Assembly (NCBI RefSeq): GCF_015751905.1
Contig: NZ_JADOUF010000001.1
Coordinates: forward strand, 8,555,501-8,619,500
Length of the DNA: 64,000 nt
Reading direction: 5' to 3'
Source: Longispora fulva
GTDB lineage: Bacteria > Actinomycetota > Actinomycetes > Mycobacteriales > Micromonosporaceae
Shown here: piece after piece, positions 9,966 through 54,582 of the stretch
Layout of the letters: each line of letters opens with the position of its first letter
Position numbering within the stretch: the stretch's first letter is position 1
Program-made: the position numbers and the translations under genes
Notes under the pieces: model-generated
Told to the model about the DNA's origin: nothing
The model's input: the letters and a program-made list of their open reading frames with translations, nothing else
Database searches by the model: none

Positions 9966-12419
9966 ATGGCGAGGAGCAGGCGGTTGTCGAGCGACGTCAC
10001 ATCCCCAGCGGAGGGTTCAGTGGCGGGTTCCGGCGCGCCGGTTCCGCCGGGCCCCAAGGACACCTCCACCGTTAACGGTCAGAAGTCCGCGCTGAACGCC
10101 GTCGTGCCGGCGGATGACCAGGTCCCGGGCGAGGAGTCCAGCGGCGTCCGCCCCGGGCTGGGCAACGTGCCGACCGGCCGGCGGGTCCGGGCCCGGCTGG
10201 CCCGGTTCAACGCGCCGTGGCAGAGCACCCAGGTCCGCGAGGTCCTCGAGCCGCTGGTCGCCACGCACCGCGCCAGTCACGCCAAGGCCGACGTCCGCCT
10301 CCTCCAGCAGGCGTACGACGTGGCGGCGAGCTACCACACCGGGCAGTACCGCAAGTCCGGCGACCCGTACATCACCCACCCGCTGGCCGTGGCGACGATC
10401 CTCGCCGACCTCGGGATGGACACCACCACCCTGGTGGCGGCGCTGCTGCACGACACGATCGAGGACACCCCGTACTCCCTGGAGGAGATGCGCCGCGACT
10501 TCGGCGGCGAGGTGGCGCTGCTGGTCGACGGCGTGACGAAGCTCGACAAGGTCAAGCTGGGCGACGCGGCCAAGGCGGAGACGATCCGCAAGATGGTCGT
10601 CGCGATGGCCAAGGACCCCCGGGTGCTGGTGATCAAGCTGGCCGACCGGCTGCACAACATGCGTACCCTGACGTTCCTGCCGCAGGCCAAGCAGGAGCAG
10701 AAGGCGCGCGAGACGCTGGAGATCCTGGCCCCGCTGGCCCACCGGCTGGGCATGAACACGATCAAGTGGGAGCTGGAGGATCTGTCCTTCGGCACGCTGT
10801 ACCCGAAGCGGTTCGACGAGATCCGCCGGCTGGTGCAGGACCACTCCGGCCAGCGTGACGCCCTGCTGGCCCAGGTCACCGACCGGGTCAACACCGACCT
10901 GCACACCTCGAAGATCAAGGCGAGCGTCACCGGCCGCCCCAAGCACCTGTACTCGATCTACCAGAAGATGATCGTCCGGGGCCGCGACTTCAACGACATC
11001 TACGACCTGGTCGGGGTGCGGATCCTGGTGGACACCGTGCGCGACTGCTACGCCGCGCTCGGCGTGGTCCACGCGAACTGGCAGCCCGTCCCGGGCCGGT
11101 TCAAGGACTACATCGCGATGCCCAAGTTCAACATGTACCAGTCGCTGCACACGACCGTGATCGGCCCGAACGGCAAGCCGGTCGAGATGCAGATCCGCAC
11201 GTACGCGATGCACCGCACGGCGGAGTACGGCATCGCGGCGCACTGGAAGTACAAGGAGACCAAGGGCGCCACGATCGTCGGTCCGCCCGCGCACATCGAC
11301 GAGATGGCGTGGCTGCGCCAGCTGCTGGACTGGCAGCGCGAGGCCGCCGACCCGAGCGAGTTCCTCGACGCGCTGCGCTATGACCTGTCCAGTCAGGAGG
11401 TGTACGTCTTCACCCCGAAGGGCGACGTCATCGCCCTGCCGAAGGGGTCCACGCCGGTCGACTTCGCCTACGCCGTGCATACCCAGGTCGGGCACAAGTG
11501 CATCGGCGCGCGGGTCAACGGCAAGCTCGTACCCCTCGAATCGTCGTTGAACAACGGCGACGTGATCGAGATCTTCACGTCGAAGTCGGAGACCGCCGGC
11601 CCGACCCAGGACTGGCTCGGCTTCGTCAAGAGCCCCCGGGCGCGCACCAAGATCCGGCAGTACTTCAACAAGGAGCGCCGCGAGGAGGCGATCGAGGACG
11701 GCAAGGAGCAGATCACGAAGGCCATGCGCAAGCAGGGCCTGCCGCTGCAACGGATGCTCACCCTCGACTCGCTGACCACGATCGCCCGCGACCTGCACCT
11801 GCAGGACGTGTCCTCGCTGTACGCGGCGGTCGGCGAGCACCAGGTGTCCGCCCAGTCCGTCGTCCAGAAGCTCGTCGCCGGCTACGGGGGCGAGGAGGGC
11901 CTGGTCGAGGACGTCGCCGAGACCGCCCTGCCGACCAGGGTGTCCTCGCGGTCCCGGGGCCAGTACGACCCGGGTGTCGTCGTGCACGGTGTCTCCGATG
12001 TCTGGATCAAGCTCGCCCGGTGCTGCACCCCGGTGCCCGGCGACCAGATCATGGGCTTCGTGACCCGCTCCGGCGGGGTCAGCGTGCACCGCCAGGACTG
12101 CGTGAACTCCGACGACCTGCGCAGCCAGCCCGAACGGCTCGTCGAGGTGACGTGGAAGCCGAGCGCCGGGTCGACGTTCCTCGTCGCGATCCAGGTCGAG
12201 GCCCTCGACCGCCACAAGCTCCTCGCCGACGTGACTCGGGTGCTGTCCGAGGAGAAGGTCAACATCCTGTCGGCGACGGTGACCACGACGCGGGACAGGG
12301 TGGCCGTCAGCCGGTTCACGTTCGAGATGGCCGACCCGAAGCACCTGGGGCACCTGCTGAGGGCCGTACGTGGCGTTGACGGGGTCTACGACGCCTACAG
12401 AGTCACCTCCGGGGCTTAG
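9966..12419 (+). CDS. relA: Bifunctional (p)ppGpp synthetase/hydrolase RelA/SpoT (Rel)
   Basis: 817 residues. It makes (p)ppGpp from ATP and GTP/GDP during amino-acid starvation and hydrolyses it otherwise. Domains in order: a disordered N-terminus (1-85), the HD hydrolase domain with an intact HDTIED (162-167), the nucleotidyltransferase domain, TGS ([10 protein letters not shown], about 478-540), a zinc-finger/helical region with RCCTPVPGD, and a C-terminal ACT domain. The synthetase carries RFKD at 378-381, the RXKD motif of bifunctional enzymes rather than the EXDD of monofunctional RelA. A weak purine tract (CTGAGAG) precedes the ATG. A long hairpin repeat begins 8 nt after the stop. Confidence 0.96.
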
Positions 12420-12427
12420 GCCGTTTG

Positions 12428-12544
12428 GACCCGCTGAGGACGACGCTGGACTGCGCACTGGCAAAATGCGCAGGGCGAGCCCTGGCGCCTTTCGCCACTG
12501 CTTGCCAGCGCCGCCCTCAGCGGGCCACTGCGCCTTAGATCAAA
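12428..12544. repeat. Long-hairpin repeat element, copy 1 (3' of relA)
   Basis: The outer arms are CCCGCTGAGGACGACGCTGG (12430-12449) and CCAGCGCCGCCCTCAGCGGG (12505-12524). Differences between the arms are A opposite C on the plus strand, which become G-U pairs in minus-strand RNA. A middle stem pairs 12456-12471 with 12485-12500 imperfectly, and the apex is AGGGC...GCCCT-like. A conserved flank continues to AGATCAAA (12537-12544). The element begins 8 nt after the relA stop, between convergent genes. Copy 2 lies at 54301-54418. Terminator, structured RNA and mobile palindrome are all open. Confidence 0.85.
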
Positions 12545-12615
12545 ACCTTTTTGACGGTTACGGTGGTTCCTGCTTTGGCATGCATCGGTTCTTCCTGTTC
12601 CGCCCGGGGCGGGTA

Positions 12616-13218
12616 TCAGGGGGCGGTCTCGTCGGCTGTGGTGATGTGCTCCGCGATCGTCAGCAGGTCGTGGCGCTGCCGGAAGGTGAACGATTCGGTG
12701 GAATCCGGTCGGCGGAGCGCCCGCACGTGCAGGGCCAGGAGTGACCGGTCGGCCGGGTCGAGCCGGCCCGTGGTCAGGCAGGTGGTGGCGAGTCCGCGCA
12801 GGTCGACGGCTGCCGGGTGGCCCGTGGCGGTCAGCGCGGCGAAATGCCGACGCGTCCAGCACCACAGTGCGTGCAGGGCGCCCTCGCGGGGATCGGCGTC
12901 CCACCGGAGGCTCCGGTGCGGGTAGGGCTCGTCGGGGCCGGGTACCCGGCGGCCGGCCCGCTTGGCGGCCGTGCGCCGGGCCGCGTAGGCCTCCGACGCG
13001 CGGTGGCGGGCGGCGCGGCTGGCCGACAGCAGGTCCAGGGCCGCCAGCAGGGTGGCCTCGTCCCGCGCGTACGGACCGGCCAGCCTGGTCAGCAGGCTCA
13101 GAGTGATGTTGAAGCCCAGCGGGCGGTAGATCTGCACGCACGATCCCAGGGCGTTGACCCGCCGGCCCCAGGGCAGGTCGGGATTGCGGACCCGCGCGGC
13201 CGAGCTGGCGAAACTCAC
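12616..13218 (-). CDS. Uncharacterised protein
   Basis: 200 residues from a GTG at 13218 with AGGAG upstream. The translation reads MSFASSAARVRNPDLPWGRR, then a hydrophobic helix-rich stretch (NITLSLLTRLAG) and a C-terminal region with DPADRSLLALHVRALRRPDS. I recognise no family. It has no signal peptide and no clear membrane helix. It is convergent with relA, with the hairpin repeat in between, and is transcribed in the same direction as the cyclophilin genes behind it but separated from them by a terminator. The codon bias matches its neighbours. Confidence 0.65.
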   Translation of the reverse strand: MSFASSAARVRNPDLPWGRRVNALGSCVQIYRPLGFNITLSLLTRLAGPYARDEATLLAALDLLSASRAARHRASEAYAARRTAAKRAGRRVPGPDEPYPHRSLRWDADPREGALHALWCWTRRHFAALTATGHPAAVDLRGLATTCLTTGRLDPADRSLLALHVRALRRPDSTESFTFRQRHDLLTIAEHITTADETAP

Positions 13219-53109: not shown

Positions 53110-54300
<1,191 letters not shown>

Positions 54301-54418
54301 GACCCGCTGAGAACGACGCTGGACTGCACGAAAGGAACACCCGCAGGGCGCTGCCCTAGCGGGTGTTCCTTTCGTTTGCCAGCGCCGCCCTCAGCGGGCC
54401 ACTTCGCCTGAGATCAAA
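54301..54418. repeat. Long-hairpin repeat element, copy 2 (abutting metK stop)
   Basis: Outer arms CCCGCTGAGAACGACGCTGG (54303-54322) and CCAGCGCCGCCCTCAGCGGG (54379-54398). Middle stem CGAAAGGAACACCCGC (54329-54344) pairs perfectly with 54359-54374. Apex AGGGC (54345-54349) with GCCCT (54353-54357). The flanks match copy 1 at about 41 of 43 and 26 of 27 positions, yet the middle stem is unrelated in sequence. All outer-arm mismatches are A opposite C on the plus strand, hence G-U in minus-strand RNA. The 177 bp from here to priA hold nothing else recognised. Confidence 0.85.
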
Positions 54419-54582
54419 TACCAAGATCATTCTTTTGTCACGGTGGGGACCGGCCCTGCGCGCGGCGGTCGGGGCCCAGTGGGGTCCCGGCCCGTGTCCG
54501 GGTGACGGGAGTTCTCGGGATCGGGGCTGTCGGGCCGTCCCGTCGGTGCGGCTCGGTTGCGGGGAAAGTCGTAGGGGTCTGG

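Follow-up and report, generated by a model that had tools for sequence, protein, structure and literature searches.

A dispersed family of long-hairpin elements, probably MITE-like, at gene 3' ends in two Longispora species

Introduction

The window, i.e. the whole stretch of 64,000 nucleotides analysed here, represents positions G000:C1:8555501-8619500 of the 8,676,660-bp genome of Longispora fulva (G000). Behind the stop codons of two of its genes, relA and metK, lie two copies of a long hairpin, which raises the question of what this element is and how it came to stand at the ends of these genes. A first-pass annotation had placed it at 12428-12544 and 54301-54418, behind the relA and metK stop codons, and both copies were located as claimed. 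It had further proposed a genome-wide family of palindromes, either terminator-like or mobile. No description of such a family was found in the literature searched, which consisted largely of papers outside subscription journals.

Results

The relA gene (plus-strand ORF 9966-12419; RelA/SpoT TIGR00691 of NCBIfam, 866 bits) ends with a TAG codon at 12417-12419. The left terminus of copy 1, GCCGTTTG, follows at 12420-12427 and, with the G of TAG included, belongs to the G[AG]CCGTTTG type as judged from its sequence and the left-end logo of Longispora albida. The outer left arm (12428-12449) opens with GACCCGCTGAG at 12428, 8 nt past the stop codon, and pairs with the outer right arm at 12505-12526 (inverted repeat 12430-12449/12505-12524). 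Between the arms, folding and covariation among 14 copies defined a hypervariable inner stem-loop (12455-12501) with the tip AGGGC..GCCCT at 12472-12483. A right tail including TTAGATCAAAACC, a T run and GGTTACGG was recognised at 12527-12564 by comparison with other copies.

In copy 2, also read on the plus strand, GACCCGCTGAG starts at 54301, the base immediately after the TAA codon (54298-54300) of metK (ORF 53110-54300; TIGR01034 of NCBIfam, 564 bits). The outer left and right arms occupy 54301-54322 and 54379-54400 (inverted repeat 54303-54322/54379-54398). They enclose an inner stem-loop at 54328-54375 that, according to the inverted repeat and the fold, has perfect 17-bp arms and a tip at 54345-54357; it is likewise hypervariable. 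The right tail, assigned by comparison with other copies, lies at 54401-54436 and contains GAGATCAAATACCAAGATCATTCTTTTG. The middles of the two copies are unrelated in sequence, yet each is a hairpin. The conserved part extends rightwards past the hairpin and includes AGATCAA motifs, a T run and GGTTACG.

Both copies fold more stably than 200 shuffles, with z values on the plus and minus strands of -4.7 and -9.2, respectively, for the relA copy and -10.4 and -11.7 for the metK copy. The predicted folding energies are -81.4 kcal/mol on the minus strand versus -61.1 on the plus strand for the relA copy, and -90.4 versus -74.6 kcal/mol for the metK copy. The earlier description of the element as terminator-like agrees with its position at gene ends, and it is this position that suggests the function; a T-run terminator at the relA copy was not confirmed, as the scan of 12300-12800 gave no match. 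At the metK copy, the scan gave two weak overlapping matches, both inside the stem. A GC hairpin followed immediately by a T run, by which an intrinsic terminator is recognised, was thus not found. No Rfam 15 family matched in the window at gathering score; permissive matches below that score, the best being to miRNA families and several falling on the terminator hairpin neighbouring the copy at L046, were rejected.

One alternative to a mobile element is that the copies are host 3'-UTR structures, i.e. terminators or mRNA-stability hairpins, which were inherited and homogenised by gene conversion and not transposed. We consider this unlikely, and the lack of a T run right behind the hairpin is one point against it; further points on either side are given below with the respective data.

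The 28-base pattern of the right arm, with up to 3 mismatches, was present at 15 places in the L. fulva genome and at none for the reversed-pattern control, and a looser left-arm pattern was found at 43 places versus 4 in the control. A covariance model built from 14 copies produced 72 matches, which correspond to at least 51 distinct sites after merging of matches on both strands; with 150 of the 16,603 first-look candidates scored, 51 copies is a lower bound. The sites range from 4.654 to 8.610 Mb, and no copy at 0-4.65 Mb was present among the 150 candidates scored. Three loose left-arm matches with 3 mismatches in that region were taken for chance because the control gave 4. All 51 copies lie within 2.30 Mb of dnaA (6.313 Mb), which is a point in favour of inherited host structures. 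Orientation did not depend on which side of dnaA a copy lies (17 plus and 18 minus on the right; 6 plus and 10 minus on the left). A blastn search of plasmids and phages with the relA copy gave no match. As is typical of MITEs, the elements are short, dispersed and palindromic, with no transposase gene inside.

Three L. fulva copies (L094, L098 and L060) are found directly behind an apparent ordinary terminator hairpin. No tRNA was present at L094 and L098, and none of the three loci gave an Rfam match.

A second carrier is L. albida DSM 44784 (G001, Micromonosporaceae), in which 86 elements were identified in 60 fetched stretches (140 matches, strands merged). Since 86 candidates were scored, the copy count in this species is also a lower bound; it includes L165:8385 of a second family (see below), and sites L201-L203 stand outside it.

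Elements are about 120-190 bp in length and have nearly fixed outer arms, GACCCGCTGAG..CGACGCTGG and CCAGC..CGCCCTCAGCGGGCC. Mean pairwise identity is 0.87 in the outer arm and 0.41 in the stem for 20 A/C-type elements of L. fulva, and 0.81 and 0.51, respectively, for 68 A/C-type elements of L. albida. The 12-nt stem bases of these 88 elements include 64 distinct sequences. Nevertheless, in the 14-copy alignment 97.7% of cells are paired, and both sides have changed in 15 of 44 pairs, a combination of pairing and two-sided change that was reached by 0 of 500 shuffles. Covariation of this kind would also be expected of host 3'-UTR structures. The recent spread suggested in the first-pass annotation fits the near-identical outer arms and does not fit the very divergent inner stems, nor the many sites that are occupied in both species.

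Subtypes differ in the tip and the inner base. The A tip (AGGGC..GCCCT) is present in 17 of 51 L. fulva elements and in 0 of 86 from L. albida, and the C tip (GTACAACCAGTAC-like) in 0 of 51 and 21 of 86, respectively; the A-tip and C-tip subtypes are species-specific. The B base (CGATGCG) is found in 29 L. fulva and 10 L. albida elements, and an inverted tip in 2 of the 137 elements from both species. The right tail consists of AGATCAAG-like motifs and a T run followed by (G)TTAC or GTAC, and is shortened in some copies. On the reverse strand, the tail of some copies (for example L075 and L046 in L. fulva) reads as a tiny ORF such as ATG ATC TTG ATC TGG CTC TTG ATC TAA, which probably results from the repeated CTTGATCT motif.

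Gene ends were assigned on the basis of codon usage, for which 19 ORFs of the window served as the training set. To the left of the element, the neighbouring gene has its 3' end facing it at 43 of 51 sites in L. fulva and 76 of 86 in L. albida; a left gene 3' end is absent at 8/51 and 8/86 sites, respectively, and 2/86 L. albida sites have no callable left gene. The prediction of a genome-wide palindrome family at gene 3' ends is therefore borne out by at least 51 sites, with the 3' end of a gene to the left in 43 of 51, and neither of the outcomes that had been named as refuting it, a total of two copies or a scatter of copies within genes, was observed. An upstream same-strand stop codon lies within -10 to +12 nt of the left arm in 40 of 51 L. 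fulva and 67 of 86 L. albida sites, as compared with 3.2% in simulated random intergenic insertion, a simulation that puts none inside genes.

The stop codons are placed at preferred offsets. Among the 131 of 137 elements included in this count (6 dropped), the stop is TAG in all 20 cases at +4 and all 22 at +8, and TGA in all 23 cases at -10 and in 9 of 12 at +7, against a background of 544 TGA, 299 TAG and 87 TAA stops. In L. albida, the left-end logos are GGTNGTGCCGACCC (58 elements) and G[AG]CCGTTTGGACCC (16 elements), each preceded by T or TA. The offsets are quantised because the left end of the element contains or completes the stop codon (TAG, TGA). Where the copy lies between tandem genes, the left end points to the stop in 47 cases (15 in L. 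fulva and 32 in L. albida) and the opposite holds in 14 (8 and 6, respectively). Right ends are less closely tied to the stop of the facing gene than left ends. Selection for a hairpin right behind the stop codon would account for position and orientation if the copies were inherited parts of host 3'-UTRs.

At L115:14362 and L139:3395 in L. albida, two left ends stand one behind the other, an arrangement that could result from insertion of a second element at the left end of an existing one. Such remnants were found at 5 of 137 sites, compared with a mean of 2.2 and a maximum of 6 in shuffles and with 0 to 4 in control windows; these data, with L139:3395 and L115:14362 as the clear cases, are only suggestive.

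A left-flank match in L. albida was obtained for 23 of the 51 L. fulva sites (28 gave no match), of which the weak 7866130 and 7788303 were excluded. Comparison of the remaining 21 orthologous sites showed that 8 have no element in L. albida and 13 are occupied, a proportion biased to occupied sites because the L. albida stretches were fetched around known elements. The occupied sites, those at relA and metK included, bear a different subtype or stem. At site 8032347, the two species have matching outer arms but a different stem and a tip in inverted orientation; at site 6198344, the L. albida element is reversed and adjoins the facing gene. At shared gene ends, the two Longispora species thus show both presence or absence of elements and their replacement. 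Joint occupancy at 13 of 21 sites would fit inheritance of host structures, as would the ordinary-looking hairpin seen by eye behind the stop, with much the same spacing, at 4 of the 8 empty L. albida sites; the empty sites themselves and the reversed element argue against it.

Mismatches within the paired arms are distributed unequally between the strands. On the gene-sense strand, the outer arms of 116 of 137 elements contain 253 A.C, 6 G.T and 85 other mismatches in 2320 pairs, and 78 distinct inner stems contain 35 A.C, 10 G.T and 17 others in 1170 pairs; the sister copies included in these counts are not independent of each other. An A.C mismatch on one strand is a G.U pair on the other, and therefore it is the strand opposite the gene that keeps the fold. 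In a 3'-UTR belonging to the gene upstream, the fold would be expected to be kept on the gene-sense strand, and the A.C mismatches there are a further argument against host 3'-UTR structures. The asymmetry could instead have arisen from one-sided (directional) deamination.

A strand that folds behind a stop codon is reminiscent of integron attC sites, which have a folded bottom strand and a variable stem and lie directly behind a stop codon. By this analogy, the folded strand opposite the gene might be inserted strand-specifically beside stops or terminator hairpins, the element supplying the stop and replacing the terminator, and the stem being rewritten during copying and still self-complementary. 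The comparison concerns the way of working only, as no attC core sites were recognised by eye and the Longispora copies are dispersed; we regard this account as tentative and rather doubtful.

Hairpin shape, mismatch asymmetry and location at 3' ends also resemble products of REP/RAYT or reverse-transcriptase (retron or group II) systems. However, the Y1_Tnp domain of RAYT was not found in any of four carrier genomes (L. fulva, L. albida, G036 and G013), while it was found in G018 and G021 and matched in 5 of 14 control cases, and RVT_1 was absent from L. albida, G036 and G013, with one match above cut-off in L. fulva (E 2e-8), one in G018 and 3/14 in the control. An origin from such systems is accordingly very improbable, and the elements are not REP in the strict sense, a class that had been considered for them, since neither Longispora genome contains a RAYT transposase. 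A Y2 (IS91-like) transposase gave no match in 6 genomes, and the control was likewise without a match. No copy was found with a transposase gene between Longispora element ends.

With a 30-sequence model and 8 candidates scored per genome, the core hairpin was detected in at least 61 of 397 genomes from the order. In other genera, the elements with this core share with those of Longispora the central hairpin and the tip TACCGGTGTTGTA, and several end at a stop codon, but they have clear terminal inverted repeats (TIRs) and CTAG- or TNA-like flanks, whereas the Longispora elements have different ends and a long conserved right tail. Among 24 such loci, most of them from genus g4 of the same family as Longispora, which we take to be Micromonospora, CTAG is present at one or both ends in 18, as compared with 0 of 24 control windows. 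In family f13 (eight loci), the stop precedes the arm by 4-7 nt in six loci, no left gene was called in one, and one lies at a gene start; in a single G018 locus, the stop is 1 nt from the arm.

Core-bearing elements elsewhere have GGGCCTGTTTC-like ends resembling those of IS5-like insertion sequences in L. fulva and G036. A second family with GAGGTCCTAAC ends, present in L. albida and G013, can bear the core (L165, L079 and L082) and shares its TIRs with an autonomous element, the IS5-like L275 of G013, which has GAGGTCCTAAC ends and TTA flanks. No autonomous GGGCCTGTTTCATAAG element was recognised in four genomes, where paired ends are 47 to 164 bases apart and a few ends are single. Two very short GAGGTCCTAAC elements of L. 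albida (L151 and L158) have no core hairpin and are flanked by TAA/TAG or TA. In G036, the IS5-family domain PF13340 was matched 27 times, with the same score in many cases and with CTAG flanks in several; this insertion sequence has probably been active recently. A gene between two neighbouring copies in G036 was rejected as the mobiliser, as by eye it reads like an aldo/keto reductase.

In L. fulva, the ends of the IS5-like insertion sequence L294 (G000:C1:3348382) read TA(A)-GACCGTGTCTCAA and have GACCGT in common with the left-end type T(A)-GACCGTTTGG; from its sequence, L294 is a possible mobiliser of copies of the G[AG]CCGTTTGG type. This 6-base agreement is the only one between Longispora ends and 30 IS5-like loci, in several of which the TIRs are unclear, and the other Longispora left-end type had no match in the 30 loci. 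Longispora flanks are T or TA on the left and TTAG or TCAG on the right of the hairpin, with no clean target-site duplication evident.

Discussion

We infer movement of the elements, a mechanism, a terminator function and a mobiliser as follows. With moderate confidence, the family is best explained as non-autonomous palindromes of a MITE-like kind, which enter at the 3' ends of genes and from then on serve as the 3' hairpin. Among the classes proposed at the outset, MITE-like fits best, given the short dispersed palindromes and the empty sites in L. albida.

A copy would enter at a gene 3' end, in most cases oriented so that its left end faces the stop codon; this end would supply or complete TAG or TGA, so that the host gene may lose or gain a few residues. 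The stop codons and the hairpin that come with the element may explain why it is tolerated, and where it occupies the place of the terminator hairpin found in a relative, it probably assumes the terminator role. At gene ends that already bear an element, copies would subsequently be replaced through fresh insertion or through conversion, and such renewal is proposed as the reason why the same genes bear different subtypes in the two species. The fold kept opposite the gene suggests that an enzyme acting in trans may process the element as a single strand in its folded state. Several points fit this account less readily: the conserved right tail is at odds with a simple TIR-to-TIR element, and the 13 sites occupied by different subtypes need replacement or strong hotspots. 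The lack of a transposase-bearing copy and of a clear target-site duplication, the results of the terminator scan, the copies with no gene 3' end to their left and the looser tie of right ends to stops also count against it.

In a narrower form of this explanation, the elements would be ordinary IS5-type MITEs whose target contains TA (CTAG, YTAR or TNA). Such targets cluster at stop codons in a GC-rich genome, and therefore the position would merely follow from the target chosen. Of 400 CTAG sites in the L. albida stretches, 121 are at stops, 228 are intergenic and 51 are coding, and the CTAG and IS5-like ends of core loci in other genera, the T or TA before the Longispora left ends and the GACCGT shared with L294 point the same way. 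A symmetric target predicts no orientation bias, though, contrary to the 47 versus 14 copies among tandem genes, and f13 copies lie behind TGA as well as TAG; hence, target choice alone may not suffice. The shortness of the L294 match, the unmatched left-end type, the lack of an evident target-site duplication and a mismatch asymmetry unexpected of a cut-and-paste element further reduce this narrower account to a possibility that we hold with less than even confidence.

Known repeats most similar to the preferred MITE-like reading by behaviour are ERIC and YPAL, which are matched on the available parts of their published descriptions and not on sequence. ERIC is a dispersed repeat of about 127 bp with long stem-loops, TA termini and target-site duplication (PMC2229807, PMC2759123, PMC10969869, PMC2267715), and it can sit at gene 3' ends, altering the C-terminus or the stop (PMC2229807, PMC2759123, PMC10969869). 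The Longispora elements are likewise dispersed, with long stem-loops and at gene 3' ends, as compared by description only. Unlike ERIC, they occur in another phylum and combine fixed outer arms with a hypervariable stem, a feature absent from the parts of the ERIC descriptions available. YPAL/RU-2 of Yersinia is about 168 bp, not A+T-rich, has internal inverted repeats and lacks TA termini, and its targets span or adjoin dyad symmetry (PMC2229807, in the parts available). Its host also belongs to another phylum, and stop-codon fusion and subtype turnover are absent from the available parts of the YPAL descriptions. REP/BIME with RAYT are dispersed extragenic palindromes like those of Longispora, but the Longispora elements are much longer, and no RAYT gene was found in the four carrier genomes searched.

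An abundant repeat thus stands at more than 100 gene ends in two Longispora species, including those of relA and metK, and its core hairpin is common to different-looking element families across the order. The family provides a natural test of how mobile DNA can be directed, in a dense genome, to sites where it does the least harm, as well as of how hairpin stems can change fast yet stay paired.
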